Of a stretch of DNA of 36,938 nucleotides, positions 1,264 to 33,838 are shown in pieces (the stretch's first letter is position 1; every line of letters begins with the position of its first letter). The stretch spans positions 1 to 36,938 of the forward strand of contig CAIRSA010000115.1 of assembly GCA_903881085.1 (NCBI GenBank). Reading direction: 5' to 3'. The stretch comes from an uncultured Acidobacteriia bacterium (GTDB taxonomy: Bacteria; Acidobacteriota; Terriglobia; Bryobacterales; Bryobacteraceae). Position numbers and translations under genes: made by a program. The notes beneath the pieces were generated by a model, which did no database searches, was not told where the DNA came from, and saw only the letters and a program-made list of their open reading frames with translations.

Positions 1264-1279
1264 ACTGTTGCGCAACAGT
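1264..1279. promoter_or_regulatory. Palindromic operator candidate upstream of TonB receptor 1
   Basis: ACTGTTGCGCAACAGT is a perfect 16-bp palindrome. Its core TGTTGCGCAACA (1266-1277) has 54 nt between it and the receptor start codon. The second receptor has TGTTACGTAACA at exactly the same spacing, and both sites are followed 14-15 nt later by TTTGCT. The shared form TGTTRCGYAACA suggests a dimeric regulator site. The obvious candidate regulator is one of the local winged-helix proteins, but this is untested. Confidence 0.65.
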
Positions 1280-1331
1280 TCTAGACAAGCTTTTGCTCGC
1301 TGTTTTCTTCGCCTATGCGTAATATCCTGTT

Positions 1332-4300
1332 ATGCCAACACTCGCCGTTTGTGCTCCGTTGCACCGGTCCCTTTCTTCATGTACCAAGCTGTGCCTTCTT
1401 GGATTCGTGTTCCTATCAGGTCTCTGCGCACAAAACGCACAGATTACTGGACGCGTCTCAGACCCCACGGGGGCTCCTGTTCCCGGCGCGAAGCTGACCC
1501 TTCACAATGGCGACACCGGTGTCGAGCGCAGAATTGAGACCAATGGAGAGGGGTATTACGCGTTAGCCTTGCTCGTTCGCGGACACTATACCTTGTCCGC
1601 TGAAAAGACCGGGTTCCAGGTTGCTAAGCGCTCCGACGTTGTTCTGGACGAAGGACAAGTGGCGCGGCTGGACTTCGATCTGAAACTCGGCAAGGTCGGT
1701 GAAACAGTGGAAGTCTCCGGTGCAGCCCCACTGCTCGAAACGGAAAACGCCTCGATCAGCGCCGTGGTTACTAACCAGAAGGTTGTAGATCTGCCTCTCA
1801 TGAACCGGAACATCATGGGCCTTACAGCACTGCTGCCGGGAGTGCGGCCGACGGCAAATCTTGGGGGCATGTCCAGATCGGCGCTGGGAAGTTTTGCGGC
1901 CTCCATCGGCGGTGGCGCGCCAAGCGCCAACAATCCCATGGTGGACGGCGTCGCAGCGGACGAGTTTGAAAGCGGCTCAATCACGATCAGCCTTTCGGTC
2001 GACGCCACAGAAGAGTTCCGGATCATCGCCCACAATGCCGCCGCCGAATTCGGGCACACTGGAGGGGGGGTAGTGAACATCGTGAGCAAAGCTGGCTCTA
2101 ATGACTTCCACGGATCGCTGTTTGAGTTCTTTCGTAATCGTCTGCTGAACGCCAACGATTTCTTCGCCAACCGTGCCGGGATCACCCGCCCAGGGTTCAG
2201 CTACAACAACTACGGCCTGGCCATCGGCGGACCGATACTCCTGCCGAATGTATATAACGGAAAGAATAAAACATTTTTCTTCTTCAATTGGGAGGGGTTT
2301 AACCAGCGGACTCCAGGCCAGACGATTCGATCAGTTCCTACCAGTCTGCAGCGAAGCGGCGATTTCTCCCAGACTCTGAGCGCCCAAGGGCAACTCATCA
2401 CCATCTACGACCCGACCACGACCCGCCCGGATCCTTCGCACCCTGGCTCATACATTCGCGATCCGTTCTCCGGAAACGTGATTCCCGCAAACCGTCTAAG
2501 CCCCGTAGCTGTAAAAAGTATCGCCTATTTTCCCGCTGCAAATCAGGCTGGCACCCGTTTCGCGCAGGCCAACAACTTCTTTGCTCTGGCCTCGCAGCCG
2601 ATCGATAAGAACATCACCGGAACCCGCGTGGACCATTACTTTACCCCCAATCGCCGAATCTTTGCTAGATACACACGCGATACCACGCCGCAAGGAGTGC
2701 CTAATTTCTACGGAAACGTGGCCGAATCAAACACTTCCGATCTTATCTTCATACGTAATAGCGCGGTTCTGAGTTACATGGAGACGCTGGGTCCTGCCCT
2801 GCTCTTTGACGCGCGAATCGGATGGAATGACTATGAGACGCCGCGTAACAACCGCAGCCTAGGATTCGACCTGTCAACCCTCGGCCTGCCCGCCTCTTTG
2901 AACAGCCAGGTTCAACAGAGAATTTTCCCGCGATTCAACATAGCGGACGTCTCCACCCTTGGCTCCGATCCTGGCGACCAGATTAACAAGAACAATAGCA
3001 CTTATACAGCCGGGGGAGCATTGACCTGGGTACATGGCACGCATATAAGTAAGTTCGGAAGCGAAGCAAGGCTTTATCGGGGCTTTAACTCGCAACTGAG
3101 TGGCGATGTTCTGACGTTCAATATCGATCGGGGCTTCACGCAAGGCCCTAATCCCAATGTCGCAGCGGCCACTGCCGGTTTCGGTGTCGCCACTTTCCTG
3201 CTCGGTTCGCCGTCGAGCGGAAATGCGACGCGGGCGGCGGCAGTTACTTATAGTGAGCGTTACTTTGCATTGTATGCGCAAGATGACTGGAAACTAACGC
3301 CCCGGCTCACCGTAAACGCCGGCGTGCGATGGGACTACCAGTCCCCGTTTGTCGATCGTTTCGATGCCATTACAAATTTCGACCCGAACGCGTCGTATAA
3401 CTTGAACGGTGTCCCACTCATTGGCGGCCTTGCTTACCCGGCGACAAATGGGTTGCCCCGCGGCGATCGAGACCAGCGGTGGCGGGATTTTTCGCCGAGG
3501 CTCGGCATCTCGTATCAGCTCGCTCCGAAGACAGTAGTCAGGGCGGCTTACGGGCTCTACTTTCTTCCGGTCACCGGCAATGGGGCGCGTCTGGGGCAAA
3601 CCGGATTCTCGCTTAACAGTGCCATGACAACATCGTTGGACGGAGGTCTGACTCCCTCGGGCTCTCTCTCCAACCCATATCCTTCCGGGATCGCTGTTCC
3701 GGTGGGATCCGCTCAAGGTTTGGCCACTGGCCTAGGTACCTCCGTCTCTGCAAATCGGCGTTCGCTTTGGGGTGGATACAGTGAACAGTGGAGCTTCAAC
3801 ATGCAAAGAGAATTTGCCGGGAAATGGCTACTTGAAGCTGGTTATAGCGGCAATCGAGGGGTCTCACTTCCGGTTTCTTACTCCTATCGCCACCTTCCGC
3901 AGCAAGCGCTTCAGCTCGGATCACAACTACAGCAACTTTCGGCCAATCCATATGCTCGCGTAATCACAACCGGGCCGCTCAGCGTGCCGCAGGTAACACA
4001 GGCGACATTACTGCAGTTCTACCCTCAATACCTTGGCGCTAGCGGGCTTGAGAATTGGGGCGATTCCATATATCATGCTCTCACTGCAAGATTCGAAAGG
4101 CGATTTTCTTCCGGCTTGTCCGTGCTGGCAGCATACACGTATTCGAAAACGATTGACAATATGCTGAAAGGCGCATTTGCCGCGAGTGGTTCCAATAGCG
4201 TAGTTAATTGGGACAATCTGCGGGCAGAGCGGGCAATTTCCACAATCGATCTTCCGCAACGTTTCGTACTCTCCACCAGCTATGCGCTGTCTTTGGGCGG

Positions 4301-4769
4301 CACGAGCAATCGGATAGTCAAGCAGATAGTCTCCGGCTGGCAGATCAACGGAATATTGACACTGCAAAGCGGAGACCCGATCGCCGTGTCCCAAAACACG
4401 CCTACCCTTGGAAGTTTCCGTCCAAACGCTGTTGGCGATCCAACCAATCAGGACCCGACAATTGATCACTGGCTGAATCTTCAGGCGTTCACCCCAGCTG
4501 GTCCTTTCACATACGGGAATGCGCCGCGCAACCTGCCAAAGACGCGCACAGATAATTTCAAAAACCTGGATTTTTCAATACTGCGGACATTTCCTATCCA
4601 GGAACGATTCCGGCTGCAGTTCCGCGGTGAGGCGCAGAACCTCACCAATACGCCGACGTTTGGGACGCCGGCTTCCAACATCAGCGCCTCGAATTTCGGC
4701 ACAATTACCTCAGTGAGCGGATACAGCGCTCCCCGTCAAATTCAACTCGGCCTGAAATTGACTTTTTGA
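1332..4769 (+). CDS. TonB-dependent receptor, Oar-like, with carboxypeptidase-regulatory domain (receptor 1)
   Basis: This is a predicted outer-membrane receptor that imports a ligand using TonB energy. A signal peptide ends near residue 33 (hydrophobic LCLLGFVFLSGLCAQ). A carboxypeptidase-regulatory (Cna-B-like) domain follows at about 36-115, starting QITGRVSDPTGAPVPGAKLT. A plug domain spans about 125-260 (VVDLPLMNRN, SIGGGAPSANN, HTGGGVVNIVSKAG). A long beta-barrel ends in the aromatic residue of LKLTF, as outer-membrane proteins do. The start has no clear ribosome-binding site, but it keeps the same distance to the upstream palindrome as in receptor 2. The next gene starts 1 nt after the stop, so the two are probably co-transcribed. 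The ligand is unknown. Confidence 0.92.
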   Translation: MPTLAVCAPLHRSLSSCTKLCLLGFVFLSGLCAQNAQITGRVSDPTGAPVPGAKLTLHNGDTGVERRIETNGEGYYALALLVRGHYTLSAEKTGFQVAKRSDVVLDEGQVARLDFDLKLGKVGETVEVSGAAPLLETENASISAVVTNQKVVDLPLMNRNIMGLTALLPGVRPTANLGGMSRSALGSFAASIGGGAPSANNPMVDGVAADEFESGSITISLSVDATEEFRIIAHNAAAEFGHTGGGVVNIVSKAGSNDFHGSLFEFFRNRLLNANDFFANRAGITRPGFSYNNYGLAIGGPILLPNVYNGKNKTFFFFNWEGFNQRTPGQTIRSVPTSLQRSGDFSQTLSAQGQLITIYDPTTTRPDPSHPGSYIRDPFSGNVIPANRLSPVAVKSIAYFPAANQAGTRFAQANNFFALASQPIDKNITGTRVDHYFTPNRRIFARYTRDTTPQGVPNFYGNVAESNTSDLIFIRNSAVLSYMETLGPALLFDARIGWNDYETPRNNRSLGFDLSTLGLPASLNSQVQQRIFPRFNIADVSTLGSDPGDQINKNNSTYTAGGALTWVHGTHISKFGSEARLYRGFNSQLSGDVLTFNIDRGFTQGPNPNVAAATAGFGVATFLLGSPSSGNATRAAAVTYSERYFALYAQDDWKLTPRLTVNAGVRWDYQSPFVDRFDAITNFDPNASYNLNGVPLIGGLAYPATNGLPRGDRDQRWRDFSPRLGISYQLAPKTVVRAAYGLYFLPVTGNGARLGQTGFSLNSAMTTSLDGGLTPSGSLSNPYPSGIAVPVGSAQGLATGLGTSVSANRRSLWGGYSEQWSFNMQREFAGKWLLEAGYSGNRGVSLPVSYSYRHLPQQALQLGSQLQQLSANPYARVITTGPLSVPQVTQATLLQFYPQYLGASGLENWGDSIYHALTARFERRFSSGLSVLAAYTYSKTIDNMLKGAFAASGSNSVVNWDNLRAERAISTIDLPQRFVLSTSYALSLGGTSNRIVKQIVSGWQINGILTLQSGDPIAVSQNTPTLGSFRPNAVGDPTNQDPTIDHWLNLQAFTPAGPFTYGNAPRNLPKTRTDNFKNLDFSILRTFPIQERFRLQFRGEAQNLTNTPTFGTPASNISASNFGTITSVSGYSAPRQIQLGLKLTF

Positions 4770-4770
4770 T

Positions 4771-6378
4771 ATGGACAATCTGACGCGCAGGAGTGTTCTG
4801 CAAATGATGCCGGGTGCGGCGCTGGCCTCCCAGGCCGGCGCCAATCCCGGGACTCGCTTCGCGGATGTCGTGGTCTACGGCGGGACCGCTGCAGGGGTGA
4901 TTGCGGCGGTGCAGGTGTCCCGATTGGGGAAGAGGGTACTGCTTTTGGCTCCGGAGCGCCAAGTGGGCGGAATTTCGGTAGATGGCTTGGGAGCCAGCGA
5001 CATCAATAATCATTGGTTTCAGAACGATTATGCGGTTGGCGGCTTGGCTCGTGAATTCTACCTTCGGGTTGGTAGAAAATATGGCAGCGCAGCACCGGTA
5101 TATCGCTTTGAATCGAGTGTGGCCGAGAGCGTGTTTGAGGATCTGTTGCGCGAGGCCTCCGTCGCTATCGTCAGAGGCGTGCGCTTGCGAGAGCCTCTTC
5201 CATCCGCAGTGGATTGGGGAGGGCAGGTAAAGCGGGTACGGGCGATCCGGATGGAGTCGGGCGAAACCTTCTCCGGTTCGATATTCATTGATGCCACCAT
5301 GGAAGGAGACCTGTTAGCAGCGGCCAGAATCACCACAGCCTCCGGCCGCGAAGGTAATTCGCTCTACGGGGAGACGACGAATGGAATCCGCGGCGTGAAC
5401 GACTTCCACCAGTTCACGGAACGGGTTGATCCGTACCGGATCCCAGGTGATCCTTCGAGCGGACTGATTCCCACTATAAAGGACGAGTCGCTCGGTGAAC
5501 CGGGCGCCGCGGATCGCCGCATCATGGGGTTTGGGTTTCGCCTCTGTTTAACACGCGAGACAAGCAATCACCTCCCTATCGGTAAACCTTCCGGTTACGA
5601 TCCGGGCCTGTATGAGGTTTACCGCCGTTATGCTCTTGCCGGCGGCAAATTGCCGTTTCCTGCCGCCCGTTTGCCAAATGGCAAGACCGACCTGAATGGC
5701 GGCCTGTACGGCATGAACCATGACTGGCCAGAAGGCAGCTATGCAACAAGGAAACGCATTTTCGACGAGCACAAGCAATTTACTCATGGCCTTGTATGGT
5801 TCATGGCAAACGATCCAAAATTGCCGGAATCGGTGCGCTCCGAGTGGAGAGGCTGGGGCCTGTGCCAGGATGAATTCAGTGACAACAATGGCTGGCCAAG
5901 GCAACTATATGTCCGCTGCGGAAGGCGGCTGGTATCCGATTATATGATTACTGAGCACCATACGCTCAGTATCAATCCTGAACCAGTTGCAGATCCCGTT
6001 GCGGTGGCCTTCTGGCCACCGGATTTGCACGCTGTCCGCTGTATTGTTCGCGATGGCGCGGCTTACAACGAAGGTTATGTGTTTCACACTAAGGGCTGGG
6101 GCCCTTTCGGAATCTCCTACCGCGCATTGACGCCAAGGGAGGATCAGGCATTGAACATTCTGACGCCTACATGCCCTTCGTCCAGCTATGTCGCTTACGG
6201 CGCAATTCGCCTCGAGTGGACATTCATGGCCCTTGGTCAGGCCGCGGCGACGGCTGCCGCGACTGCGTTGGAACAGCAGTGCGCGGTCCAAGCGATCAAA
6301 TACAAAACGTTAAAGGAACGTCTTCTGAAAGACGACCAGGTGTTGACTCTCAATCTGGTCCCGGCAATAGAGAAGTAA
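4771..6378 (+). CDS. FAD-dependent oxidoreductase, Tat-type signal (FAD_oxidored family)
   Basis: This is a flavoprotein of the FAD_oxidored (PF12831-like) family. Residues 6-10 (TRRSV) and the hydrophobic stretch after them look like a twin-arginine signal, so the folded enzyme is probably exported to the periplasm. The dinucleotide fold starts near residue 33 (VVVYGGTAAGVIAAVQVSRL), with the family's GGIS...G segment after it and FIDATMEGDLL near residue 174. The gene begins 1 nt after receptor 1 and lies 50 nt before regulator 1, suggesting one operon. The substrate cannot be read from the sequence. Members of this family often sit in polysaccharide- or sugar-use loci, so an oxidised sugar substrate is a guess. 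Confidence 0.85.
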   Translation: MDNLTRRSVLQMMPGAALASQAGANPGTRFADVVVYGGTAAGVIAAVQVSRLGKRVLLLAPERQVGGISVDGLGASDINNHWFQNDYAVGGLAREFYLRVGRKYGSAAPVYRFESSVAESVFEDLLREASVAIVRGVRLREPLPSAVDWGGQVKRVRAIRMESGETFSGSIFIDATMEGDLLAAARITTASGREGNSLYGETTNGIRGVNDFHQFTERVDPYRIPGDPSSGLIPTIKDESLGEPGAADRRIMGFGFRLCLTRETSNHLPIGKPSGYDPGLYEVYRRYALAGGKLPFPAARLPNGKTDLNGGLYGMNHDWPEGSYATRKRIFDEHKQFTHGLVWFMANDPKLPESVRSEWRGWGLCQDEFSDNNGWPRQLYVRCGRRLVSDYMITEHHTLSINPEPVADPVAVAFWPPDLHAVRCIVRDGAAYNEGYVFHTKGWGPFGISYRALTPREDQALNILTPTCPSSSYVAYGAIRLEWTFMALGQAAATAAATALEQQCAVQAIKYKTLKERLLKDDQVLTLNLVPAIEK

Positions 6379-6428
6379 AGACTCGCCAGGGGGATGTTAT
6401 ATACTGAGGACAGTTCATCGAGTGACAC

Positions 6429-7739
6429 ATGGCAATCTTGAGCGCTGCAGAAAAACTGGCTGCTCTTAATCAGGTTCTCTCTAGCCGAACATTTCACAAA
6501 TCAGACCTTCTCATTAAGTTTCTGAAGTACGTCTGCGAAAAAGAGATCGCCGGAGAGACGGACCGTCTTTCGGAGTATTGGATCGCAACTGAAGCGCTCG
6601 GAAGAGGCAAAGACTTTTCCCCGGATCGCGACTCTTCCGTCCGTAGCCGTGCTCATGCCCTACGGAAAAAACTCGAAGCTTGCTACCGCGATGAACTCAA
6701 CAGCGCTGAAGTAAAGATTGTTCTGCCCAAGGGCGCCTACGTACCCGAATTTGTCGCGCCGGAACCTGGGGAGAGCAAGTTCCCACCTGAGGTTGCACCT
6801 TCGGCGGCAGTTCGCTTTGGGCGATCCAATCATCGGTTACTGCTAGCATTCTTGGCTGGGGTTGCCATAACGCTCGCCGCAACAACCGTCATTCACTCAG
6901 CCGGTGGCGTGGATGCGAAGCGAGTTGCACTTCCTGACGTATTGGCACGAGCCTGGGGGCCGCTACTAGACAAAGATTCCGAAGTGCTCGTTGTAGTAGC
7001 TGTTGCCAAACAGCTATGGGTGCGCGACATCGCCGGATCCTCGATCCCCAAGAACGGAAGATGGTATCCCGAAATTCGACCGGGTGAACTGCTTCCACAA
7101 TGGTTTTTTGGTATGTCGCACCCTCCAGACCACTCTTCCTTGCTGTTACATCCCAACTCAGGTTCTCCATTATGGGGCGACACGGCAGGAGCGCTTGTTG
7201 CTGTGAAGACTCTGACTGGCTATGGCATCCGTCATCAGGTGCTGCCGGAACGGGTGCTTCAGGCATACGCGCTTCGGGACCGCAACGTCCTGCTTATCGG
7301 CAACCCTGAATATAGTCCCGCCATACAAGCTTTGTTGCGGGATGCTCCATTTTCAGTGAGCTATGATCCGAAATCCCCTTGGGAATCTGCCAGTGCTCTA
7401 GTGAACCGAAACCCCGCAGCCGGAGAAGCCCCGGTTTTCAAACGCGATCGCGTTGAGGATTGTTACGGTCTGATCACAGTAACTGGAAGTAGGGTCGGTG
7501 GGTCTGGAGAAAACCGACCCAGCCGGCAAGTCGCCTTCTCCGGTCTTACTTCGGCAGGAACGCAGGCTGCGGTGGAGTATTTCTCCTCGCCGAACTCCTT
7601 GACGGAGTTGCTGAAGCATCTCGGTGGTGGAGAGAATAAGGCTCTACCTCGGTCGTATCAGGTTGTGGTGCACGCAACCATCGAAGGGAATCTTCCGCTT
7701 CGCTACACATACAAGACGCATCGGGTCCTTGCGGAATAG
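6429..7739 (+). CDS. Membrane-anchored winged-helix transcriptional regulator (regulator 1)
   Basis: This is a predicted one-component regulator with its DNA-binding domain in the cytoplasm and a sensor outside. Residues 8-108 form a winged-helix domain of the kind common in Acidobacteriota. It has the segment SSVRSRAHALRKKLEACY as probable recognition helix and VKIVLPKGAYVPEF as the wing. One membrane helix spans about 136-155 (LLLAFLAGVAITLA). The remaining 280 residues form an unrecognised extracytoplasmic domain with conserved blocks (AWGPLL, RWYPEIRPGE, GSPLWGD, LPERVLQAYALR, GNPEYS). The topology resembles ToxR/CadC, although the winged-helix family differs. A close paralogue lies at 10052-11365. 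The start lacks a strong ribosome-binding site. Confidence 0.8.
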   Translation: MAILSAAEKLAALNQVLSSRTFHKSDLLIKFLKYVCEKEIAGETDRLSEYWIATEALGRGKDFSPDRDSSVRSRAHALRKKLEACYRDELNSAEVKIVLPKGAYVPEFVAPEPGESKFPPEVAPSAAVRFGRSNHRLLLAFLAGVAITLAATTVIHSAGGVDAKRVALPDVLARAWGPLLDKDSEVLVVVAVAKQLWVRDIAGSSIPKNGRWYPEIRPGELLPQWFFGMSHPPDHSSLLLHPNSGSPLWGDTAGALVAVKTLTGYGIRHQVLPERVLQAYALRDRNVLLIGNPEYSPAIQALLRDAPFSVSYDPKSPWESASALVNRNPAAGEAPVFKRDRVEDCYGLITVTGSRVGGSGENRPSRQVAFSGLTSAGTQAAVEYFSSPNSLTELLKHLGGGENKALPRSYQVVVHATIEGNLPLRYTYKTHRVLAE

Positions 7740-7801
7740 TGCGGGGTGGGATGGCTGTTCAGAACTGACTTCATGCCTCGGTGTTGAAATTCGTCCTTTG
7801 T

Positions 7802-10015
7802 TCATTGGACAGATTCCAGATATTGGCACGCCATCGCCCGCGTCAGAGGCCCGTTCGGGGGCATTGGAAGTGTTGTTGGGATGCGTATATATTCGGCCTT
7901 GCCCGGTGAGAGCATCCCGCGCTCTTTGATTGCCCGGATGATTGCGACGAACTCGGCGGTGGAAATTGGCCTGTCTGGCTCAAAGTTACCGTACGATTCC
8001 TGGGATTGGTAGCCTGCATCCCGTTTGGCGTCGAACTCGCCACGTTTGCGCCAGAGTGGAATGAATCCGATTCCTTCCAGCATGCCATTGTCGGTTAGAG
8101 TTTCGATGGCTTTGAACTCGGGATGCGTGTAGGGAACGTCCGGGAAATGCGAATGGGTAACGCTTGGCCAGAGGTCAAATGCTTTTACCAGCATGGCTGC
8201 GGCTGCTGCGCGGGTCAGCGGTTCATCCGGTCCGAACGTACGGTCCGCCCGCTCGGCGATGACGCCTTTAAGAGCCAAGCGTTGGATGGCTGCAAACTGT
8301 GGGTGTGTGGGCTGAACGTCCCGCAGATAGACAAGTTTGATCTTCTGTTTTAGAAGTTCGTCTTGAAGGCCGGCAACGGCTAGTTGGCGAGGCGTGATTC
8401 CTTGTTTCACGCTCATGGCAGCTGAAATACCGGCGGCTTGGCCGAGTACGATCCAGAAAGGGTCCTGTCGGATCGATGAAAATGCAACGTGTGTAGTGGA
8501 AATGGCGGCTGCTACGAGAAGGTTTTCTATGCGTTGGGGAAGCATCGCGCCGTAGGGGACCTGTGTTGCAGTGGTTACTCCGGTAAGGTACATGTTGCCG
8601 TTGCCGAGCATTTCCGGCGTCAGGTTGTCGCGCTTGGGCTCTACTGGTTTTGCGTCGATGGGGTAGTGCGCCAGGCCGATGCTGTTAGTGAAGAAGGGAG
8701 GACGAAGACCGTTTGCACCGAGGAAGGCGTTCACATTCTGCTCGTTCAGTGTCTGGTCGCCAATGATGCGGCGGCCTTCCCGAGTGAACACGCGGTAGGG
8801 GATGTGTCCGTTTCCCGGCCAAGCCGACTTCGGTAGTCCCATGTGCTTGTAGCCTAGCTCCGTCTGCAGGTAATAAAGATAGCCGAGGGCGACGTTCTTG
8901 AACTTCTCATACATGTCGCGGCGTTCTTCACGAGTCGCTTCGGGCCAGCGCCAGTAAGCGCGGTCCAGCCCAGCCCGGAATTCCGATCCATTCCATTCGA
9001 TTTGAGAGTTGGGCAGAGCCGTCTCGCCGAGACAAGCCGAGCGTTTGGGATCGTTCTTAATGGCAGAGTAGAGAGAGGGGTCGTAATTGGGTGGGGGCGA
9101 CTTCAACAGATGGGAGTCGTCCTTCGCGGCATCGTAGTTGCACTGGATGCCAAGGCGGAGGATGTAGCCTGCCGGGGCGGCATCCTGCCGTCCGTTACTG
9201 CCGATTACCAGTTCCGCAGTCTGCTCCTGAACGTAGATTTCGCCAGCGTGCGGTTCCTCGGGACTGCGAGGTTCGCGTCCAACACGGTAGGGTGCGCCGG
9301 CCCAGGCGGCGATATCGCCTTCATGCGTGGCATCGACAAAGTTTGAAGCGTAGAGAATGAGGCGGGAGTTGGGCTTAGCTGGGGCGTAGGCATAGGATGC
9401 GGAGGCCTCTTCCGAGACAATGCCGACGACCTTACGATTGACCCGGATGACAGCGGTAGCGAAGCGGCGATAGAAGACCTTGATATTGGGATACTGTTGG
9501 AGCATCTCTTTTAGGATCTGGTCGGCAACTTGAGGCTCCCACACTCCGCCTTCGCCAGGGTCGTTGCCCCAATAGGAACCGGGATCGATGGGCCGGATGT
9601 CGGTTCTCGGTCTTGCTGTAGGCTCCGCGAGAAACTTGGCGCGTCTGGCGGCGAGGTTTGGATTGGCGGCGTTGTAGGCGGCGTAATGGGATTTGACGCG
9701 TTGCCGGAATTCTTCGAAGACGCCGCTCATGGATGCCCGGGAATAGGCGTCGATATTGGAGATGCCGTTAGAGAGCATGCCACCGAGGACGGGAGTGTCT
9801 TCGATAAGTGCGACGCGGACACCAAGCCGGGCAGCACCGATGGCGGCGCCAACACCCGCGGAACTTCCGCCGACAATCACAACATCATAGCTTTCGGATG
9901 GGGATTGCGCGTAGAGAGCAGTTGATACCGCAATCAACAATAATGAGTTTCTAAGGCTGAAAGATGACACCAGATGATTATCGTGTAAACTGACCGGCAC
10001 GGAAAGCACATGCAT
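7802..10015 (-). CDS. Secreted FAD-dependent oxidoreductase with C-terminal SLH repeats
   Basis: The N-terminal 560 residues are a flavoprotein of the same broad FAD_oxidored family as the 4771-6378 product. The dinucleotide fold reads YDVVIVGGSSAGVGAAIGAA, followed by LGGMLSNGIS, and FVDATHEGD lies further in. The last 170 residues contain S-layer-homology-like repeats: THPQFAAIQRLALKGVI...FGPDEPLTRAAAAAML, then FPDVPYTHPEFKAIETL, with a third partial repeat at the end (PLTRAMACQYL). A hydrophobic signal (SLLLIAVSTALYAQ) supports export. The reading frame is open up to 10138, but I chose ATG at 10015 because a longer form would overlap the divergent regulator. GTG at 9970 is also possible. 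The protein may be held at the cell surface. The substrate is unknown. Confidence 0.82.
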   Translation of the reverse strand: MHVLSVPVSLHDNHLVSSFSLRNSLLLIAVSTALYAQSPSESYDVVIVGGSSAGVGAAIGAARLGVRVALIEDTPVLGGMLSNGISNIDAYSRASMSGVFEEFRQRVKSHYAAYNAANPNLAARRAKFLAEPTARPRTDIRPIDPGSYWGNDPGEGGVWEPQVADQILKEMLQQYPNIKVFYRRFATAVIRVNRKVVGIVSEEASASYAYAPAKPNSRLILYASNFVDATHEGDIAAWAGAPYRVGREPRSPEEPHAGEIYVQEQTAELVIGSNGRQDAAPAGYILRLGIQCNYDAAKDDSHLLKSPPPNYDPSLYSAIKNDPKRSACLGETALPNSQIEWNGSEFRAGLDRAYWRWPEATREERRDMYEKFKNVALGYLYYLQTELGYKHMGLPKSAWPGNGHIPYRVFTREGRRIIGDQTLNEQNVNAFLGANGLRPPFFTNSIGLAHYPIDAKPVEPKRDNLTPEMLGNGNMYLTGVTTATQVPYGAMLPQRIENLLVAAAISTTHVAFSSIRQDPFWIVLGQAAGISAAMSVKQGITPRQLAVAGLQDELLKQKIKLVYLRDVQPTHPQFAAIQRLALKGVIAERADRTFGPDEPLTRAAAAAMLVKAFDLWPSVTHSHFPDVPYTHPEFKAIETLTDNGMLEGIGFIPLWRKRGEFDAKRDAGYQSQESYGNFEPDRPISTAEFVAIIRAIKERGMLSPGKAEYIRIPTTLPMPPNGPLTRAMACQYLESVQ

Positions 10016-10051
10016 GCACCTAACAGACAAAAACGGTTGTAGTATGGAGAA

Positions 10052-11365
10052 GTGAAATCGAGTACAGCCAAAATGCCAGCTGGATTGGTGAGCCCGGACG
10101 ATAAGCGATTCGCGCTGGAACAGGTTCTGAAGAGCCATACATTTCAGAAGAGCGAGTTGCTGATCCGCTTCTTGAAATACATTTGCGAATGCGAAATTTC
10201 GGGGAATGCTGGAACGATTACGGAGTATAGCATCGCCACGGGGGCGCTAGGCCGGCCGAAGGACTTTTCGCCGGAGGCGGATTCTTCGGTAAGGAGCCGG
10301 GCACATGCGTTGCGCCGCAAATTGGAAGATTACTACCGGGAAGAGTTGCCATCGGCTGGAATGAGAATCGTGCTGCCGAAAGGCAGCTATGTCCCCTACT
10401 TTGAAGCTGGCCAGCCTGAATTAGAGGTGGAAACCGATACGGTTCCTGCGGAGTTGGAGAAGCCCCGCAGGAGTCAGAGTCCTTTCATTCTCTTTGGTCT
10501 GGGTGCTTTCACAATGTTCTTGATTTTGCTGGGCGTTTACTTGCTGGTGGTGCGCCCGGAAGCGAGGGATGGGAGTCCGGCGATTGTTAAGCAGGCATGG
10601 GGCCCGTTGCTACAGCCAAATGCAGATGTGCTGGTGGTTGTGGCTATTCCGAAGCAGTTCTGGGCGAGGGAATTTGAATCTGGTGAAACGCCAAGGAATG
10701 AGCGATGGTATCCGCACTTGAGTCAGGATGAGGCGCTGCGGCATTGGTATTACGAGTCGTCAACGCCTCCGGCCGGCAGAACGATTCTATTGCACCCCAA
10801 TGTCGGATCGCCATTGTGGGGCGATATGGCGGGGGCAATGAGCGCAGTAAAAATTCTCGCGGCCAATGGCGTGAAGCACCAGTTGTTGCCTGAGCGAGTG
10901 TTGAAGTCATATGCGCTTCGCGGGCGCAACGTAATGTTGTTTGGGAATCCCGAGTACAGCAATTCGATCAGAAACGCATTAAGCAATGCGCCTCTGCAGG
11001 TACGTTATGATCCGGTCTCGCGGTGGGAAGCGGTCATGAACGGTAAGCCGGGGAGCGGGGAACCGGAGGCGTACCGGCGGGCAAAGGGCGATGATAACCT
11101 GGGCGTGATTAGCGTATTGGTCGACGACCAAGGGGATTCCCGGCCTACGCAGACGGTGGTGTTTTCCGGGCTTACCTCAGCAGGCACGCAGGCGGCGCAA
11201 GAGTTTTTCTCTTCTCAGGGATCTTTGAATGATCTGGCAGCGCGGTTCAAGGCGAGCGGAGTTGCAAAATGGCCACAATCGTACCAGGTTGTGATTGAAG
11301 CGTCGACAGACTTGAACCTGCCGACGAAACACCGCTACCGGACGCATAAGATTATCACTCCATGA
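10052..11365 (+). CDS. Membrane-anchored winged-helix transcriptional regulator (regulator 2)
   Basis: This is a paralogue of the 6429-7739 product with the same layout. A winged-helix domain covers about residues 15-117 (SSVRSRAHALRRKLEDYY, MRIVLPKGSYVPYF). A membrane helix spans about 144-166 (PFILFGLGAFTMFLILLGVY). The same uncharacterised outer domain follows, with AWGPLL, RWYPHLSQDE, HPNVGSPLWGD, LLPERVLKSYALRGRN and GNPEYS blocks. The GTG start at 10052 has GGAG only 2 nt upstream, which is too close. ATG at 10073 aligns better with the start of regulator 1 and is a real alternative. The gene is divergent from the SLH-flavoprotein and ends 77 nt before receptor 2, so it could control both. 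Confidence 0.8.
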   Translation: MKSSTAKMPAGLVSPDDKRFALEQVLKSHTFQKSELLIRFLKYICECEISGNAGTITEYSIATGALGRPKDFSPEADSSVRSRAHALRRKLEDYYREELPSAGMRIVLPKGSYVPYFEAGQPELEVETDTVPAELEKPRRSQSPFILFGLGAFTMFLILLGVYLLVVRPEARDGSPAIVKQAWGPLLQPNADVLVVVAIPKQFWAREFESGETPRNERWYPHLSQDEALRHWYYESSTPPAGRTILLHPNVGSPLWGDMAGAMSAVKILAANGVKHQLLPERVLKSYALRGRNVMLFGNPEYSNSIRNALSNAPLQVRYDPVSRWEAVMNGKPGSGEPEAYRRAKGDDNLGVISVLVDDQGDSRPTQTVVFSGLTSAGTQAAQEFFSSQGSLNDLAARFKASGVAKWPQSYQVVIEASTDLNLPTKHRYRTHKIITP

Positions 11366-11376
11366 GTCTGGAAACG

Positions 11377-11401
11377 TGTTACGTAACAAGTTAACAACTT
11401 G
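11377..11401. promoter_or_regulatory. Palindromic operator candidate upstream of TonB receptor 2
   Basis: TGTTACGTAACA at 11377-11388 is a perfect 12-bp palindrome with 54 nt to the receptor start codon, matching the site at 1266-1277 in form and spacing. A second, partly overlapping inverted repeat, CAAGTT-AAC-AACTTG, lies at 11387-11401. TTTGCT follows at 11404-11409. These features suggest a regulator site over or near the promoter of receptor 2. Confidence 0.65.
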
Positions 11402-11442
11402 CATTTGCTTTAGTTTGGGGATGTGATGGCATATTCTCGGAT

Positions 11443-14400
11443 ATGCTCAGTCTGCATCCATCCGTACCTATTTCCCTCACGCATTTGTTTGGCAAGATAA
11501 CGACTCAAGTGCTGGTTGGCACGTTGTTCCTCACTATTGCCAGTGCGCAAAGCACGCAAATTACCGGGCGTGTGATTGACCCATCGGGGGCGGCGACCCC
11601 CGGTTGCAAAGTGGCTGTCCGCAATTCCGATACGGGGCAAGAGCGTATTGTTGAAACGAATTCCGATGGCTACTATACGGCACCTTCGCTAGCTCGTGGC
11701 AAGTATTCGGTGTCGGCGGAAAAGTCTGGCTTTCAGGTCGGCCGGCGAACCGGTTTTGAGCTTGACGAAGGGCAAACCGTGCGTGTTGATTTCGAACTGA
11801 AGCTTGGAACGGTCGGTGAGACTGTGGAAGTGACTGGCGCCGCAGCGCTGTTGGAATCGGAGAGTTCGGCATTAAGCGCTGTTGTTACCAACCAGAAGAT
11901 TGTAGATCTACCGATGGTGAACAGGAATATTACGGCATTGATGTCGCTAATTCCTGGGGTGCGGCCAACGGCGAACCTGGGCAATATTTCCCGTTCGGCG
12001 CTGAATAGTATGAACGCATCGATCGGGGGCGGCGCGCCGAGCGCCAACAATCCACTGGTGGACGGAGTCGCTGCGGATGAGATGTTTTTCGGGCAACTGA
12101 CAATCAGCCTCTCCGTAGATGCAACGGAAGAGTTCCGCATCATCACGCATAATGCCAGTGCCGAGTATGGGCATACGGGCGGCGGTGTGGTGAACGTTGT
12201 GAGCAAGGCCGGCACCAACGAGTATCACGGCGCGTTGTTTGAGTTTTTCCGAAACCGGTCATTGAACGCAAACGATTTTTTTGCGAATCGGGTTGGCGCG
12301 GCAAGGACCGCTTTCAACTATAACAATTTTGGAATTGCCGGTGGCGGTCCGATGCTCATTCCAAAGGTTTACAACGGCAAGAATAAGAGCTTCTTCTTTA
12401 TCAATTGGGAGGAGTACAAGCAAAGGAGTTTGAGCCAGACGTTCCGCACGGTGCCAACGGATCTGCAGAAAAAGGGCGACTTTTCGCAGACATTGACTGC
12501 GCAAGGGGCGGTGATCAATGTGTTCGATCCTACGACGACGCGGCCGAATCCTGCCGCGGCAGGCACGTATTTTCGCGATGCGTTTCCGGGCAATGTAATT
12601 CCTGCGAATCGAATCAATCCGATCTCACAGAAGGTGTTGGGCTATTATGCTTCGGCGAATGTGCCTGGAGCGGCAGTGACGCACGCCAACAACTACTTTG
12701 GTTTGGCATCGGCGCCCCTGGACAAGTTACTGATCGGCGTGCGCGGGGACCATTACTTTTCCGCGGCGCGGAGGGTGTTTGTTAGATATACGCGGGATAA
12801 GACGCCGCAAGGATTAGCGAATTACTTTGGTAACTTGGCCGAGCCCAACACTTCCGATATCACGTTTATCCGCAATAGTGGGATTGTGGGCTATTCCGAT
12901 TCCATCCGGCCGAATCTGGTATTCGACGGCAGGTTTGGATACAACGACTACAAGACGCCCCGGCAAACCAGGAGCCTGGGTTTCGATGTGAGCACCATCG
13001 GACTGCCGGCGAGCTTGAATTCTCAGATGCAGCAGAATATCTTTCCCCGCTTTGCAATGAGCGATGTTTCCACGATTGGGGCGGATCCTGGGGACCAGAT
13101 CCGCAAGACGAACTCGACGCTGAGCGGCAATGGTGGACTGACTTGGATTCATGGGGCGCATACGAGCAAGTTTGGGGGAGAGATCCGCTATTACCGGGGC
13201 TTCGATTCGCAGTTGACTGGGGATTCGTTGACGTTCAATTTCAACCGGAGTTTCACGCAGGGGCCGAATCCGAACACGGCGTCATCAGCGGCGGGATTCG
13301 ATTTTGCGAGCTTCCTTTTGGGAACACCCGCTAGCGGAAATGCAACGCGATCCGCTACGGTTGGTTATAGCGAACATTATTATTCATTGTATGCCCTGGA
13401 TGACTGGAAAATTACTCCGAAGCTGACACTGAATACGGGCATAAGATGGGAGTATCAGTCGCCGTTTTATGATCGCTACAATGCAATTACTAACTTCGAT
13501 CCAGCAGCACAGTATAATCTCAACGGAATCGCGCTGCGCGGAGCAATGCTTTACGTCGGCCAAAGTGGCATTGGGCGGGGAGATCGCGATTCGCGTTGGA
13601 AGGATTTTGCGCCACGGATTGGGTTGGCTTACCAGGTGGCCGCGCGGACTGTGGTCAGGGCGTCGTTTGGCATCTTCTATTTGCCGATCACGGGCATCTC
13701 GTCGCGCTTGGGGCAGGCGGGCTTCACTATTAACAGTGCGATGACTACTTCGGCGGATGGCGGGTTGACGCCGCTGAATACAATTTCAAACCCCTATCCT
13801 GGGGGCATCGCGTTGCCGGTTGGCTCAAGCCAGGGAATGTCCACTGGCCTGGGGACGTCCGTTGGCGCCAACCCGCGGTCGTTGTGGGGCGGATATAGCG
13901 AGCAGTGGAGCATGAACATACAGCGTGCACTGGCTGGCAAGTGGTTGATCGAAATTGGTTACGAAGGCAACCGTGGCGTGTCTCTCCCCGCATCCTTCGC
14001 TTACCATCATTTGCCGCAGGATGCGTTGAAGTTAGGCACGCAGTTGCAGCAACTGGTTGCGAATCCGTTTGCCGCGATCATAAAGAGTGGACCTCTAAGC
14101 CTGACGCAAGTAACGAATTCGACTCTACTGAGCACGTATCCGCAATACACTGGCAACAGCGGGCTGGAGAACTGGGGGAACTCCATTTATCATGCCATGA
14201 CCTTGCGGCTCGAGAAGCGGTTTTCCTCCGGAGTGTCGTTGCTGGCTTCTTATGCATTCTCAAAGGTGATTGACGATACGCTGCGCGGTTCTTTTGGTGC
14301 GGCTGGGAGCAACAGTGTTCAGAACTGGGACAATTTGCGAGCCGAAAGGTCGATTTCGACGATCGATTTGCCGCACCGTCTTGTGACCACCGGAAGTTAT

Positions 14401-14886
14401 GCTTTGCCGTTCGGAAAGTTGGCGAACCCGGTGTTGCGGGCGATTGCGAATGGGTGGCAGGTGAATGGGATTCTTACGCTACAGAGCGGTGATCCGATTG
14501 CCGTGACGCAGAATGCACCGGCATTTGGGGGATTCCGGCCGAATGCAGTGGGCGACCCCAGCCGCCCGGACGCTACAATCGAACACTGGTTGAATCCCGC
14601 CGCATTCGTTGCCGCGCCTTCATTCACTTATGGGAATGCCGGGCGTAACTTGCCTCGGACACGCACGGATGTTTTTAAGGATCTGGATTTCTCATTACTG
14701 AGGAACTTTGTGATCCGCGAGTCAATGCGGCTGCAGTTTCGCGGTGAGGCCATCAATCTGACGAATACGCCAACGTTCGGCAATCCGAATGGCAATATCA
14801 GTTCAACCAGTTTCGGGGTAATTACAGGCCTGAGCGGGAATGCTACCGCGCGGCAGGTGCAATTAGGATTGAAGCTGCTGTTTTAG
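11443..14886 (+). CDS. TonB-dependent receptor, Oar-like, with carboxypeptidase-regulatory domain (receptor 2)
   Basis: This is a close paralogue of receptor 1 (1147 versus 1145 residues), colinear throughout. It has a signal peptide ending near residue 31 (VLVGTLFLTIASAQ). The regulatory domain starts QITGRVIDPSGAATPGCKV. The plug contains VVDGVAADE-like and HTGGGVVNVVSKAGT segments, and the barrel ends in the aromatic residue of LKLLF. Long blocks match receptor 1, for example LGLPASLNSQ/IGLPASLNSQ and SLWGGYSEQWS. Differences are scattered, so the duplication is not recent. It follows regulator 2 in the same direction. A 5S-derived repeat starts 22 nt after its stop codon, and hairpin A within it probably terminates transcription. 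The ligand is unknown. Confidence 0.92.
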   Translation: MLSLHPSVPISLTHLFGKITTQVLVGTLFLTIASAQSTQITGRVIDPSGAATPGCKVAVRNSDTGQERIVETNSDGYYTAPSLARGKYSVSAEKSGFQVGRRTGFELDEGQTVRVDFELKLGTVGETVEVTGAAALLESESSALSAVVTNQKIVDLPMVNRNITALMSLIPGVRPTANLGNISRSALNSMNASIGGGAPSANNPLVDGVAADEMFFGQLTISLSVDATEEFRIITHNASAEYGHTGGGVVNVVSKAGTNEYHGALFEFFRNRSLNANDFFANRVGAARTAFNYNNFGIAGGGPMLIPKVYNGKNKSFFFINWEEYKQRSLSQTFRTVPTDLQKKGDFSQTLTAQGAVINVFDPTTTRPNPAAAGTYFRDAFPGNVIPANRINPISQKVLGYYASANVPGAAVTHANNYFGLASAPLDKLLIGVRGDHYFSAARRVFVRYTRDKTPQGLANYFGNLAEPNTSDITFIRNSGIVGYSDSIRPNLVFDGRFGYNDYKTPRQTRSLGFDVSTIGLPASLNSQMQQNIFPRFAMSDVSTIGADPGDQIRKTNSTLSGNGGLTWIHGAHTSKFGGEIRYYRGFDSQLTGDSLTFNFNRSFTQGPNPNTASSAAGFDFASFLLGTPASGNATRSATVGYSEHYYSLYALDDWKITPKLTLNTGIRWEYQSPFYDRYNAITNFDPAAQYNLNGIALRGAMLYVGQSGIGRGDRDSRWKDFAPRIGLAYQVAARTVVRASFGIFYLPITGISSRLGQAGFTINSAMTTSADGGLTPLNTISNPYPGGIALPVGSSQGMSTGLGTSVGANPRSLWGGYSEQWSMNIQRALAGKWLIEIGYEGNRGVSLPASFAYHHLPQDALKLGTQLQQLVANPFAAIIKSGPLSLTQVTNSTLLSTYPQYTGNSGLENWGNSIYHAMTLRLEKRFSSGVSLLASYAFSKVIDDTLRGSFGAAGSNSVQNWDNLRAERSISTIDLPHRLVTTGSYALPFGKLANPVLRAIANGWQVNGILTLQSGDPIAVTQNAPAFGGFRPNAVGDPSRPDATIEHWLNPAAFVAAPSFTYGNAGRNLPRTRTDVFKDLDFSLLRNFVIRESMRLQFRGEAINLTNTPTFGNPNGNISSTSFGVITGLSGNATARQVQLGLKLLF

Positions 14887-14907: not shown

Positions 14908-14950
14908 ACTGCACTCGCGAGTGTGTGGGAGCGTAGGACGTCGCCCGATT
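14908..14950 (+). pseudogene. 5S rRNA 3' fragment (truncated copy 3)
   Basis: From ACTGCAC at 14908 to CCCGATT at 14950 the sequence matches the last third of 5S copy 1 with few changes. The first 70-odd bases of the 5S gene are missing, and the DNA before it is unrelated. The fragment cannot fold as a 5S rRNA. Confidence 0.85.
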
Positions 14951-14957
14951 AGCAAAC

Positions 14958-14996
14958 AGCCCGCTGGCAACAGTCCGCTGGCAACAGCGGGCTGTT
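14958..14996 (+). terminator. Hairpin A, copy 2 (with internal duplication)
   Basis: It has the same AGCCCGCTG...CAGCGGGCT stem as the hairpin at 990, but the block CCGCTGGCAACAG is present twice, separated by a T. It still can form the outer stem. The T tract is broken (GTTGC). It probably terminates the receptor 2 transcript. Confidence 0.7.
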
Positions 14997-15000
14997 GCTA

Positions 15001-15154
15001 TTTCAGTTGGCCCCGCCTTCGCCAAGGCTTCCGCCTCCGCTAAAGCTATGGCGGATCTACGATCGGCGGACGGCGCACGAGGTGCCGGAGTAAGTCGTCG
15101 CCCGATTTAAAGAAGCGCAACGCCCCGGCCAGCAATGGACGGGGCGTTTGTGCG
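15001..15154. repeat. Composite repeat, copy 2, ending in hairpin B
   Basis: It repeats the part order of 1021-1175: a GC-rich palindromic segment (15010-15070), a short 5S tail (CGTCGCCCGATT near 15096-15107), then hairpin B at 15115-15154 (ACGCCCCG paired with CGGGGCGT). It leads directly into the DUF4160 gene. Confidence 0.78.
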
Positions 15155-15447: not shown

Positions 15448-15729
15448 ATGTACTGGGACATTTTAGAAGTGAAAGCTGTAAGCAACGACGGGCTTTGGCT
15501 GCGGTTTGCGGATGGTGTGACCGGAATCGTGAGATTGAATTTATCCGACTTTACGGGCGCGTTAGCGCCGCTGAGTGATCCAAAATTTTTCGCAGAGGTT
15601 GGGTTAGAGCATGGCGCCCCCACCTGGCCAGGTGAGATTGACCTGGCGCCTGATGCTCTGTATCGAAAGCTCCAGAATCCGGTCGCCGGATCGGAGCCGA
15701 TATATTCCCATCCGGAGCAAATCAGTTAA
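15448..15729 (+). CDS. DUF2442 domain-containing protein
   Basis: This 93-residue protein matches DUF2442: LWLRFADGVTGIVRLNLSDF, then LSDPKFFAEV, GAPTWPGEIDLAPDALY. A GGAGGG ribosome-binding site at 15438-15443 supports the start, 11 nt after the DUF4160 stop, so the two are one operon. Its last codons and TAA stop (15727-15729) lie in DNA matching the middle of the 5S gene, starting at about 15724. The end of the gene therefore coincides with a repeat junction. The natural C-terminus may have been altered by that junction. Confidence 0.88.
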   Translation: MYWDILEVKAVSNDGLWLRFADGVTGIVRLNLSDFTGALAPLSDPKFFAEVGLEHGAPTWPGEIDLAPDALYRKLQNPVAGSEPIYSHPEQIS

Positions 15730-15791
15730 GCCTCTCAGACCCGATGGTTCTGCACGCGCGAGTGCGTGGGAGAGTAGGACGTCGCCCGATT
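15724..15791 (+). pseudogene. 5S rRNA 3' fragment (truncated copy 4)
   Basis: From AGTTAAGCCTCTCAG at 15724 it matches the second half of the 5S gene. With the hairpin after it, 15724-15829 aligns without gaps to 915-1020 with about six differences by eye. The first half of the 5S is absent. The left junction falls inside the DUF2442 stop region. Confidence 0.88.
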
Positions 15792-15798
15792 AACAAAT

Positions 15799-15823
15799 AG
15801 CCCGCTGGCAACAGCGGGCTTTT
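15799..15823 (+). terminator. Hairpin A, copy 3
   Basis: AGCCCGCTG at 15799-15807, GCAA loop, CAGCGGGCT at 15812-15820, then TTT. It probably terminates the DUF4160-DUF2442 operon. Confidence 0.82.
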
Positions 15824-15830
15824 GCTATTG

Positions 15831-15949
15831 TGGTGGGACCCGCCTTCGCCAAGGCTATGGCGGGCGGCGCATGAGGCGCCGGAGTAGGACGTCGCCCGAT
15901 TAAAAGAAGCAGAAACGCCCCGGCCGGCAATGGTCCGGGGCGTTTCTGC
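15831..15949. repeat. Composite repeat, copy 3 (shortened), ending in hairpin B
   Basis: A shortened GC-rich palindromic segment (15839-15880) is followed by an intact 18-base 5S tail, GTAGGACGTCGCCCGATT, and a perfect hairpin B at 15909-15949 (15-bp stem). Compared with the hairpin at 140-180, the third stem position-pair has switched from C:G to G:C with pairing kept. The stem also reads as a terminator for the opposite-strand gene that ends at 15998. Confidence 0.8.
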
Positions 15950-15997
15950 GTTTGGGATGAGTGCTATTCCCAGCAAATACCTAACTATCAGCATGGC

Positions 15998-17187: not shown

Positions 17188-17643
17188 TCAGGCTTCTTCG
17201 GGAATGATGACCGTGAAGCCTTCCATCTTGGCAACTTTGGCCAGCGTGCGGTCAGAGGTGACGAAATAGTCTATGTTGGTCCTGGCGCGGAGACGTATTG
17301 CGGAGGCCAGTTGCAAGGAGTCAAGTGTTCGGAGGCTATGCTGTTGCGCATAATGGGTGAGCAGCGTTTGTGCCTGGCGGTAATCTTCGTCCAGGATTCG
17401 TTGGATGATGAAACGCTGCGAGTCGGCGCTCTCCGCAACGTCTGCGAGGAATGTTGCGGCCTTTTCCTTGTTGATAGTGCCGGTGCGAACTTTGACACCA
17501 GCGACCGAGGTTAGTTCCACCACCGCCAACCGCGACGTGAATGCGCGATTTCTGTGCTCGGAATAGATCTGGATTACTTTGTCCGATCCAGGCTCCGGAT
17601 GGAACAGTTTGGCGAGTGCGCTGGAATCGAAGAAATAGTTCAC
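17188..17643 (-). CDS. vapC: PIN-domain toxin, VapC family
   Basis: This is a predicted PIN-domain ribonuclease toxin. The first acidic residue of the active site is in YFFDSSALAKL (D6), a second is the E of VVELTS, and the later acidic cluster includes LDSLQLASA and the terminal FVTSDRTLAKVA segment with its aspartate. A length of 151 residues is normal for VapC. It starts 3 nt after the stop of the antitoxin gene, typical of a translationally coupled toxin-antitoxin operon. The symbol reflects family only. Confidence 0.87.
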   Translation of the reverse strand: MNYFFDSSALAKLFHPEPGSDKVIQIYSEHRNRAFTSRLAVVELTSVAGVKVRTGTINKEKAATFLADVAESADSQRFIIQRILDEDYRQAQTLLTHYAQQHSLRTLDSLQLASAIRLRARTNIDYFVTSDRTLAKVAKMEGFTVIIPEEA

Positions 17644-18151: not shown

Positions 18152-18733
18152 ATGACTACACAAAAACAAATCGAAGCCTCGCGCAGCAACGGCGCAAAAT
18201 CACACGGTCCTGTCACGCCCGAAGGCAAGCAAATCGCTGCAGGAAACGCTACCCGTCACGGCCTTCTTTCCAGTTCCATCGTCCTCAAGGGCGAATCCGT
18301 CTCGCGATTCGAAGCCCTCTACGATTCGCTTCTCGCAGAGCACCAGCCCGCCACGCAATCGGAACACGCCTTAGTGAACTCCATGGCCGCGGCGCTATGG
18401 CGTCAGCTCCGCGTATGGGGCTTTCAGAAACTTGCGGTCGATAATCGAATAGCCCAAAGTCAGGAGTCGGGGTGGTTTGTCGCCATGGAAACCTATATCC
18501 TTGATCCCGACATCCCAACGCTCCTGCGCTACGAAACGGCCTTTAGCCGCCAGTTTTCTCGAGCTCTCAAAGAACTCAACACATTGAAATCCCGCCGCTC
18601 CGGCATCTGCCCACATCTGCCCACTGAGCCTCTTACCGGCTCTACTTGGGATCCGCTCCCTGACTCCACGGACCAAAACAGTTTTTGCGAAACGAACCCG
18701 GCAACGTGCAACTCCAATGAAATCAGTAGCTAG
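18152..18733 (+). CDS. Hypothetical protein of a family common in Acidobacteriota
   Basis: The 193-residue product begins with a polar motif (SRSNGAKSHGPVTPEGK) followed by ATRHGLLS. I know this pattern from multicopy Acidobacteriota proteins of unknown function. The middle is helical with a conserved tryptophan (ALWRQLRVW), and the tail is low in complexity. No signal or membrane segment is seen. The stop codon shares the bases CTAG with the stop of the convergent eutC gene. Third codon positions are rich in C compared with neighbours, which could mean separate ancestry. No function can be given. Confidence 0.65.
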   Translation: MTTQKQIEASRSNGAKSHGPVTPEGKQIAAGNATRHGLLSSSIVLKGESVSRFEALYDSLLAEHQPATQSEHALVNSMAAALWRQLRVWGFQKLAVDNRIAQSQESGWFVAMETYILDPDIPTLLRYETAFSRQFSRALKELNTLKSRRSGICPHLPTEPLTGSTWDPLPDSTDQNSFCETNPATCNSNEISS

Positions 18734-19413
18734 CCGATCAGCGGCTGGAAAGTGTCTTTAAGGTCTACTCCGCTGAGTCTACGGGTGCGAGCTTCGGACA
18801 TCAGAAAGTGAAGTTTCTGCGCGGCCAGATCGTAGGCGAGGCCCTCGGAGCGGATGTTGGAGATGCAGTTCCGCTCGGCGTCCGTGCGGCCGGGGCGGGG
18901 ATTCCAGGTCAGGTAGACACCCAAACTGTCGGGGCTGGTGAGGCCGGGGCGTTCTCCGATTAGCACCACTACCATGCGAGCGCCAAGAGCGGTGCCGATG
19001 GCGTCGCCGAGCGCAACGCGGGCTTGCAACGCCACCACCAGCGGGGCCACGTGCCAGTCGGCGAGCATTGGCATCAAAGCGTCGAGCAGCGGCCCGGCAT
19101 GGTGTGCCGCTGCGGGCGCCGAAAGACCATCGGCGACGACAATCGAAAGGTCGCAGTCGCCATGGGGCAGGTCGGTGCCTGGGGCGAGTTGGCGGCCCAG
19201 GTCTGGTCGGCGCAGGAATTCGCGGCGGTCGAGGGCTGCGGAATGGACCAGCAGATGGGGGCGGCCGATCGCAGTGGCGTCGAGCGGCTGGTGGACGGCA
19301 TCGCGCGCTCGGGCGTGGTCGAGGTCGAAACGCAAGAGTTCGGCGGTAGGCAACGAATGGCCGGTGCGGCCCAGTGAGACTCGGGCGGGAGTGAAGCGGC
19401 GCAGGTCGATCAT
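18730..19413 (-). CDS. eutC: Ethanolamine ammonia-lyase small subunit
   Basis: This is the light chain of the adenosylcobalamin-dependent enzyme that splits ethanolamine into acetaldehyde and ammonia. Family motifs include RVSLGRTGHSLPT near the start, the D-H-A-x-A-R-D-A-V motif, IVVADGLSA, and the C-terminal NCISNIRSEGL. I chose ATG at 19413 because it overlaps the eutB stop as ATGA, a coupled arrangement. An ATG at 19425 is also in frame. No other eut genes are seen nearby. Confidence 0.93.
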   Translation of the reverse strand: MIDLRRFTPARVSLGRTGHSLPTAELLRFDLDHARARDAVHQPLDATAIGRPHLLVHSAALDRREFLRRPDLGRQLAPGTDLPHGDCDLSIVVADGLSAPAAAHHAGPLLDALMPMLADWHVAPLVVALQARVALGDAIGTALGARMVVVLIGERPGLTSPDSLGVYLTWNPRPGRTDAERNCISNIRSEGLAYDLAAQKLHFLMSEARTRRLSGVDLKDTFQPLIG

Positions 19414-20754: not shown

Positions 20755-24180
<3,426 letters not shown>

Positions 24181-24255
24181 GGAATTCGGGGGTAATCCCC
24201 AGAATATCACGGAACCTTTTGCGGGCAGGTTCGTATTACTCGGAAAGGAGACTTT

Positions 24256-33785: not shown

Positions 33786-33838
33786 GGGGTACACTATAGC
33801 CGTATGAGCGCGCATGCCGCGCGGAAGGAGACTACTTG

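Follow-up and report, generated by a model that had tools for sequence, protein, structure and literature searches.

A probable regulator family with a predicted membrane-anchored winged helix, usually found beside Oar-type transporter genes in Acidobacteriota

The window analysed here is a 36,938-base stretch of DNA from an uncultured member of the Bryobacteraceae (Acidobacteriota; contig CAIRSA010000115.1), and the locus under study within it (1264..14886) carries two genes for Oar-type TonB-dependent receptors (Oar1 and Oar2), two for predicted membrane-anchored regulators (REG1 and REG2) and two for flavin adenine dinucleotide (FAD)-dependent oxidoreductases (FAD1 and FAD2). The gene order is Oar1(+) FAD1(+) REG1(+) / FAD2(-) / REG2(+) Oar2(+), with the following features.

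1266..1277, no strand: palindrome TGTTGCGCAACA, candidate operator, at -66 from the Oar1 ATG
1332..4769, plus strand: Oar1, an Oar-type TonB-dependent receptor with CarboxypepD_reg and beta-barrel domains
4771..6378, plus strand: FAD1, a PF12831 FAD-dependent oxidoreductase, beginning 1 bp after Oar1
6429..7739, plus strand: REG1, a predicted membrane-anchored winged-helix regulator
7802..9970, minus strand: FAD2, a PF12831 FAD-dependent oxidoreductase with an SLH domain; likely start near 9970, longest open reading frame (ORF) to 10138
10022..10035, plus strand: AACA-N6-AACG direct repeat with a 10-bp period, between FAD2 and REG2
10073..11365, plus strand: REG2, a paralogue of REG1
11373..11388, no strand: AACGTGTTACGTAACA, made up of palindrome TGTTACGTAACA (11377-11388, at -66 from the Oar2 ATG) and an upstream AACG half-site
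11443..14886, plus strand: Oar2, an Oar-type receptor with plug PF07715

Both receptors scored over the Pfam cut-offs for PF13620, PF25183 and PF00593, the last being the barrel, in agreement with an earlier note on this DNA that had placed an Oar-like TonB receptor in each half of the locus. The N-terminal PF13620 domain was detected with E-values of 6.6e-22 and 2.1e-19 and is present instead of an STN domain, none of which was found on the receptors at E<=0.01. The plug PF07715 scored 28.0 bits in Oar2 (cut-off 23.9), with none detected in Oar1 at E<=1. An architecture of PF13620 extension, plug (over cut-off here in Oar2 only) and barrel links these receptors to the Oar protein of Myxococcus xanthus, which is described as necessary for secretion of the protease PopC (PMC6434023); in view of this requirement, transport here may equally be export or import. 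The genome from which the window derives encodes at least 65 Oar-like transporters.

REG1 and REG2 each display one hydropathy peak over 1.6 (2.41 and 2.42, respectively), and a single hydrophobic helix is evident in both. An AlphaFold model of REG1 (pLDDT, the predicted local distance difference test, of 86) shows an OmpR-like winged helix (residues ~1-110), one membrane helix (~135-158) and a periplasmic alpha/beta domain (~166-436), which is the three-part architecture put forward in the earlier note. In Foldseek matches, which were given a second look and do not thereby exclude a family absent from them, the modelled N-terminal domain resembles the DNA-binding domain of SaeR, while the outer domain resembles the S-layer anchor of M. 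voltae (9fsa), BcsB and the N-terminal domains of GH67/GH115 alpha-glucuronidases, at 11-17% identity. REG is thus predicted to join a winged helix to a periplasmic domain whose fold is that of the S-layer anchor, BcsB and the GH67 N-domain, present here in a predicted regulator. The outer domain, formerly described as large and unrecognised, does lack a Pfam match but has structural resemblances. At the level of sequence, none of 36 family members contains a Pfam DNA-binding domain over cut-off and the regulator matches no Pfam family; NCBIfam holds no REG family at E<=1, and sequence searches of the PDB returned no REG relative and no link to BcsB, the S-layer anchor or GH67/GH115. Separately, three paralogues (L112 8409-10295, L118 9986-11746 and L117 6797-8698) have a related N-terminal domain followed by TPR repeats, with no Oar gene detected within the 20-kb loci of L112 and L118, and the putative DNA-binding domain seems to have been reused with other sensors.

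The association of these regulators with Oar genes was evaluated using 118 regulator ORFs scoring over 200 bits, drawn from genome contigs, the window's own genome and relatives, which were reduced by shared 6-mers to 88 non-redundant regulators, 45 of them with 5 kb on both sides (43/88 were left out). Among these 45, an Oar gene lies within 300 bp in 27, within 1.5 kb in 36, within 3 kb in 42 and within 5 kb in 44, and when only 1.5-kb flanks are required the count within 1.5 kb is 48/62. Oar genes might be common enough for any gene to land near one, in which case the pairing would be incidental, and for background genes the counts are indeed 9/96 at 1.5 kb and 13/45 at 5 kb; this null comes from the window's genome alone (20 contigs at near-even steps of contig number), which also supplies 5 of the 45 regulators. 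Against such background the regulators reach 36/45 and 44/45, and their surroundings hold 54 Oar genes of which 34 are no more than 1 kb away, so we regard an incidental pairing as highly improbable; the co-occurrence of regulator and receptor, which had been proposed as a check, is beyond chance. Of the nine regulators lacking an Oar gene at this distance of 1.5 kb, five come from flavoprotein modules and have a flavoprotein gene in between.

Orientation varies among the 60 pairs within 1.5 kb in the full set of 88, with 41 divergent, 15 in the order regulator-then-Oar and 4 in other arrangements, and the pairing is therefore not one inherited gene order. REG and Oar distance matrices correlate with an r of 0.58 over 59 pairs, where the highest value among 2000 permutations was 0.15. 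In 32/59 the closest REG relative is also the one with the closest Oar; shared genome ancestry contributes to this agreement. Several observations weigh against a dedicated regulator of Oar genes with the predicted fold: in 17 other regulator-like places in the window's own genome, weaker paralogues included, two lack an Oar gene throughout ~20 kb, in three the nearest is 2.5-4.7 kb away and two are on short contigs without one, and the structural Z values for the REG1 matches are modest.

Upstream regions were obtained for 85 of the 88 regulators (three gave none usable) and contain same-strand repeats, with pairs of TAAC peaking at 11 bp (13 pairs) and of AACG at 10 bp (21 pairs), whereas 64 control Oar promoters contained one pair of each. 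In a scan of all 4-mers at spacings of 5-40, AACG at 10 bp (14/85) and TAAC at 11 bp (12/85) were the top two combinations, and the best of any combination across 60 shuffles reached 8 regions. Either word is found upstream of 26/85 regulators, about one third of members (22/73 after collapsing similar regions), compared with 5/403 other genes of the same loci, for which the Fisher p of 2.7e-15 is optimistic because the choice of words drew on promoters already read and on the output of the scan. Fairer tests are the shuffles and a split of the set, in which the held-out part was not blind for TAAC at 11 bp. AACG at 10 bp was the top combination in set 1 (9/37) and recurred in 5/48 held-out regions (p 0.002; control 5/403), while TAAC at 11 bp was top in the held-out part (10/48) and present in 2/37 of set 1 (p 0.007; control 0/403); either word occurs in 15/48 held-out regions and neither in 59/85 overall. 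Most repeats lie ~10-100 bp ahead of the point where the family model begins. One counted AACG hit, assigned to the REG1 upstream region, falls within the coding sequence of FAD1 and probably reflects chance. At the repeat preceding REG2 (10022..10035) the first half-site falls in a run conserved in a related locus, L049, and the second outside that run.

Sites of the OmpR/PhoB family are direct repeats about one helical turn apart, with PhoP using 7-bp motifs and a 4-bp spacer to give 11 bp (PMC4832192). REG resembles this family in its predicted winged helix and in repeats spaced by about one turn, but differs in having no receiver domain, a predicted membrane tether, an AAC(G/A) half-site, periods of both 10 and 11 bp and, in the window's clade, an additional palindromic form. 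The operator-like repeats support the putative direct action of REG on DNA. We also considered that REG may not be a transcription factor at all, with the N-terminal domain bound to another protein and the outer domain anchoring or assembling Oar, much as BcsB forms part of cellulose secretion; the best outer-domain matches indeed include structural or assembly proteins (the S-layer anchor and BcsB) and sequence alone reveals no known DNA-binding family, but the enrichment of one-turn repeats before the regulators and the likeness of the modelled N-terminal domain to that of SaeR make this quite unlikely.

The palindrome reported in the earlier note is confirmed: TGTTRCGYAACA has exactly two copies in the window (1266-1277 and 11377-11388), was absent from 100 shuffles, and both copies begin at -66 from the Oar start codons. 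In L049, whose regulator has 56% identity, AACGCGTTACGTAACA is at the same place and the whole 11373..11388 site has a close match; the Oar2 site can also be read as AACG-N8-AACA. As a family operator the palindrome was rejected: GTTRCGYAAC was present in 3/21 Oar promoters of the first set but in none of 38 held-out and none of 64 control promoters, and because of its absence from the held-out promoters we assign it to the window's clade, where it is a candidate operator. The 7-mers CGTAACG and ACGTTAC, top k-mers in 28 first-set promoters, likewise failed (3/38 and 1/38 held-out, respectively; 2/64 control each), while AACGTT was replicated (8/38 held-out versus 2/64 control; Fisher p 0.005), mostly in one clade. 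A search with a strict -35/-10 pattern gave no match; judged by eye, leaderless transcription with the palindrome at about -60 would fit. The predicted recognition helices of REG1 and REG2 are near-identical (DSSVRSRAHALRKKLE and DSSVRSRAHALRRKLE), which makes cross-regulation likely, and both would read one common site at the two Oar promoters.

The position of these sites also bears on the sign of regulation. A repressor, or mainly an autoregulator, could hold itself and the Oar operon low until relieved by ligand, which would accord with repeats lying before the regulator's own gene, mostly close to the family-model start, and with the intergenic region held in common by the 41/60 close pairs that are divergent. 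However, the window's palindromes are centred ~60 bp before both Oar ATGs, and although the bearing of this depends on where transcription starts, a site ~60 bp upstream is more usual for an activator; we consider repression or autoregulation unlikely.

Pairwise identities are 65% for Oar1/Oar2, 49% for REG1/REG2 (64% over residues 1-110) and 31% for FAD1/FAD2, so the duplicated set that had been suggested holds for receptor and regulator but not for the flavoproteins. FAD1 and FAD2 relatives split by score into separate ortholog groups and both coexist in single modules at L196 and L207, where REG is divergent from FAD2-Oar-FAD1, and consequently they are not a duplicated pair. Related arrangements are REG / another related flavoprotein-Oar-FAD1 at L229 and L039 (PF12831 confirmed for L229), REG / Oar-FAD1 at L227 and FAD2 / REG-Oar at L049; FAD2 bears the SLH domain in L049 and L207 as it does in the window. 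The best reading of the window is a single module whose receptor and regulator were duplicated, probably at a later time.

Outside the window, Oar lies directly beside FAD1 on the same strand in 5/8 orthologues with >=55% identity (L291, L294, L295, L296 and L297), where L291 and L295 correspond to the L039 and L207 modules already listed, L294 has only an Oar fragment at its edge and, among the three misses, L292 ends there. A FAD1 or FAD2 relative is within 3 kb of 6/45 regulators (a raw count, two being the window's own), and the genome has 14 near-full-length PF12831 matches including the window's two. The co-occurrence of flavoprotein and regulator thus holds in one clade and not generally. 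By eye, FAD1 has a twin-arginine-like and FAD2 a Sec-like N-terminus, and we interpret them as two different, probably exported oxidoreductases that are clade-specific cargo of the module. The FAD1 model (pLDDT 70.9) matched only widespread FAD-binding folds, and therefore indicates no substrate, while PDB sequence searches found no FAD1 relative and FAD2 matches limited to the nucleotide-binding part. The circuit of import, oxidation and sensing outlined previously is one possibility.

Around the locus are two 5S ribosomal RNA (rRNA) genes, a degraded 5S copy (31.5 bits, under the family cut-off) and one more repeat of the 5S 3' end, all with related tails (15-131, 865-981, 14908-15150 and 15678-15960). 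These copies are separated by a gene of BrnT type, by the Oar locus and by a DUF4160/DUF2442 pair. The 5S repeat recurs mainly in the first 600 bases of one other genome contig (C355), which is why the repeats may mark an rRNA-linked rearrangement hotspot. The BrnT-type ribonuclease toxin gene (PF04365) is at 297-638, between the two 5S genes, and a PIN-domain ORF (PF01850) is on the minus strand at 17188-17643. Further along, EutB/EutC ethanolamine ammonia-lyase genes (18730-20696) adjoin a pyruvate-carboxylase-like gene (20755-24210), and a 588-amino-acid ORF at 33836-35602, whose N-terminus looks signal-like by eye, gave no Pfam match at E<=0.01.

ToxR/CadC-type transmembrane transcription regulators (TTRs) are described as widespread, with Acidobacteriae named among groups having somewhat more (PMC10269533), so the form proposed here, thought earlier to be undescribed, has precedent. 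A version serving Oar genes was not found in titles and abstract openings of the partial literature collection searched. REG resembles these proteins in its N-terminal DNA-binding domain (predicted in REG), single membrane helix and C-terminal outer domain, but it has no Pfam DNA-binding domain over cut-off and is coupled to Oar transporters. The ToxR/CadC outer domain also has a fold other than the one predicted for REG. The TTR survey located its regulators by Pfam DNA-binding models, which 36 REG members do not match, and the family has therefore likely been missed by Pfam-based censuses; 'TonB' does not occur in the main text of that survey (PMC10269533). REG likely works like a ToxR/CadC-type one-component regulator dedicated to a TonB-type transporter, although we stop short of claiming ToxR-like membership because the DNA-binding domain is a prediction that sequence searches do not recognise and DNA binding itself is putative.

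In cell-surface signalling of the FecI/FecR type, a TonB-dependent receptor in the outer membrane is tied to its own regulation, and the REG-Oar module would likewise tie such a receptor to its regulation. The difference is that no extracytoplasmic function (ECF) sigma/anti-sigma pair and no STN domain was found by Pfam in the 26 window ORFs scanned, from which ORFs overlapping larger genes were left out; this agrees with the earlier suggestion of a system without FecIR-type factors.

Taken together, the REG1/REG2 family is usually found beside Acidobacteriota Oar genes, and we think it reasonably probable that its members are membrane-anchored ToxR-like one-component regulators, with predicted direct control of the neighbouring Oar operons. 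The periplasmic domain would act as a ligand sensor, the ligand perhaps being a polymer that the Oar system handles, such as a glycan or cell-wall-like material, whereupon REG dimers would occupy half-sites of the AAC type and activate the Oar operon. More tentatively, Acidobacteriota may possess a one-protein signalling route dedicated to Oar, in which a tethered winged-helix sensor reads the transported polymer with its S-layer-anchor/BcsB-like domain and binds one-turn AAC repeats at the transporter promoter, one protein doing the work of FecIR's two. The family points to a class of membrane regulators outside every Pfam model. Through the co-travelling regulator and its readable candidate operator, Oar transporters of unknown cargo could be sorted into regulons, and the regulator's outer domain would offer a purifiable handle for finding their ligands.

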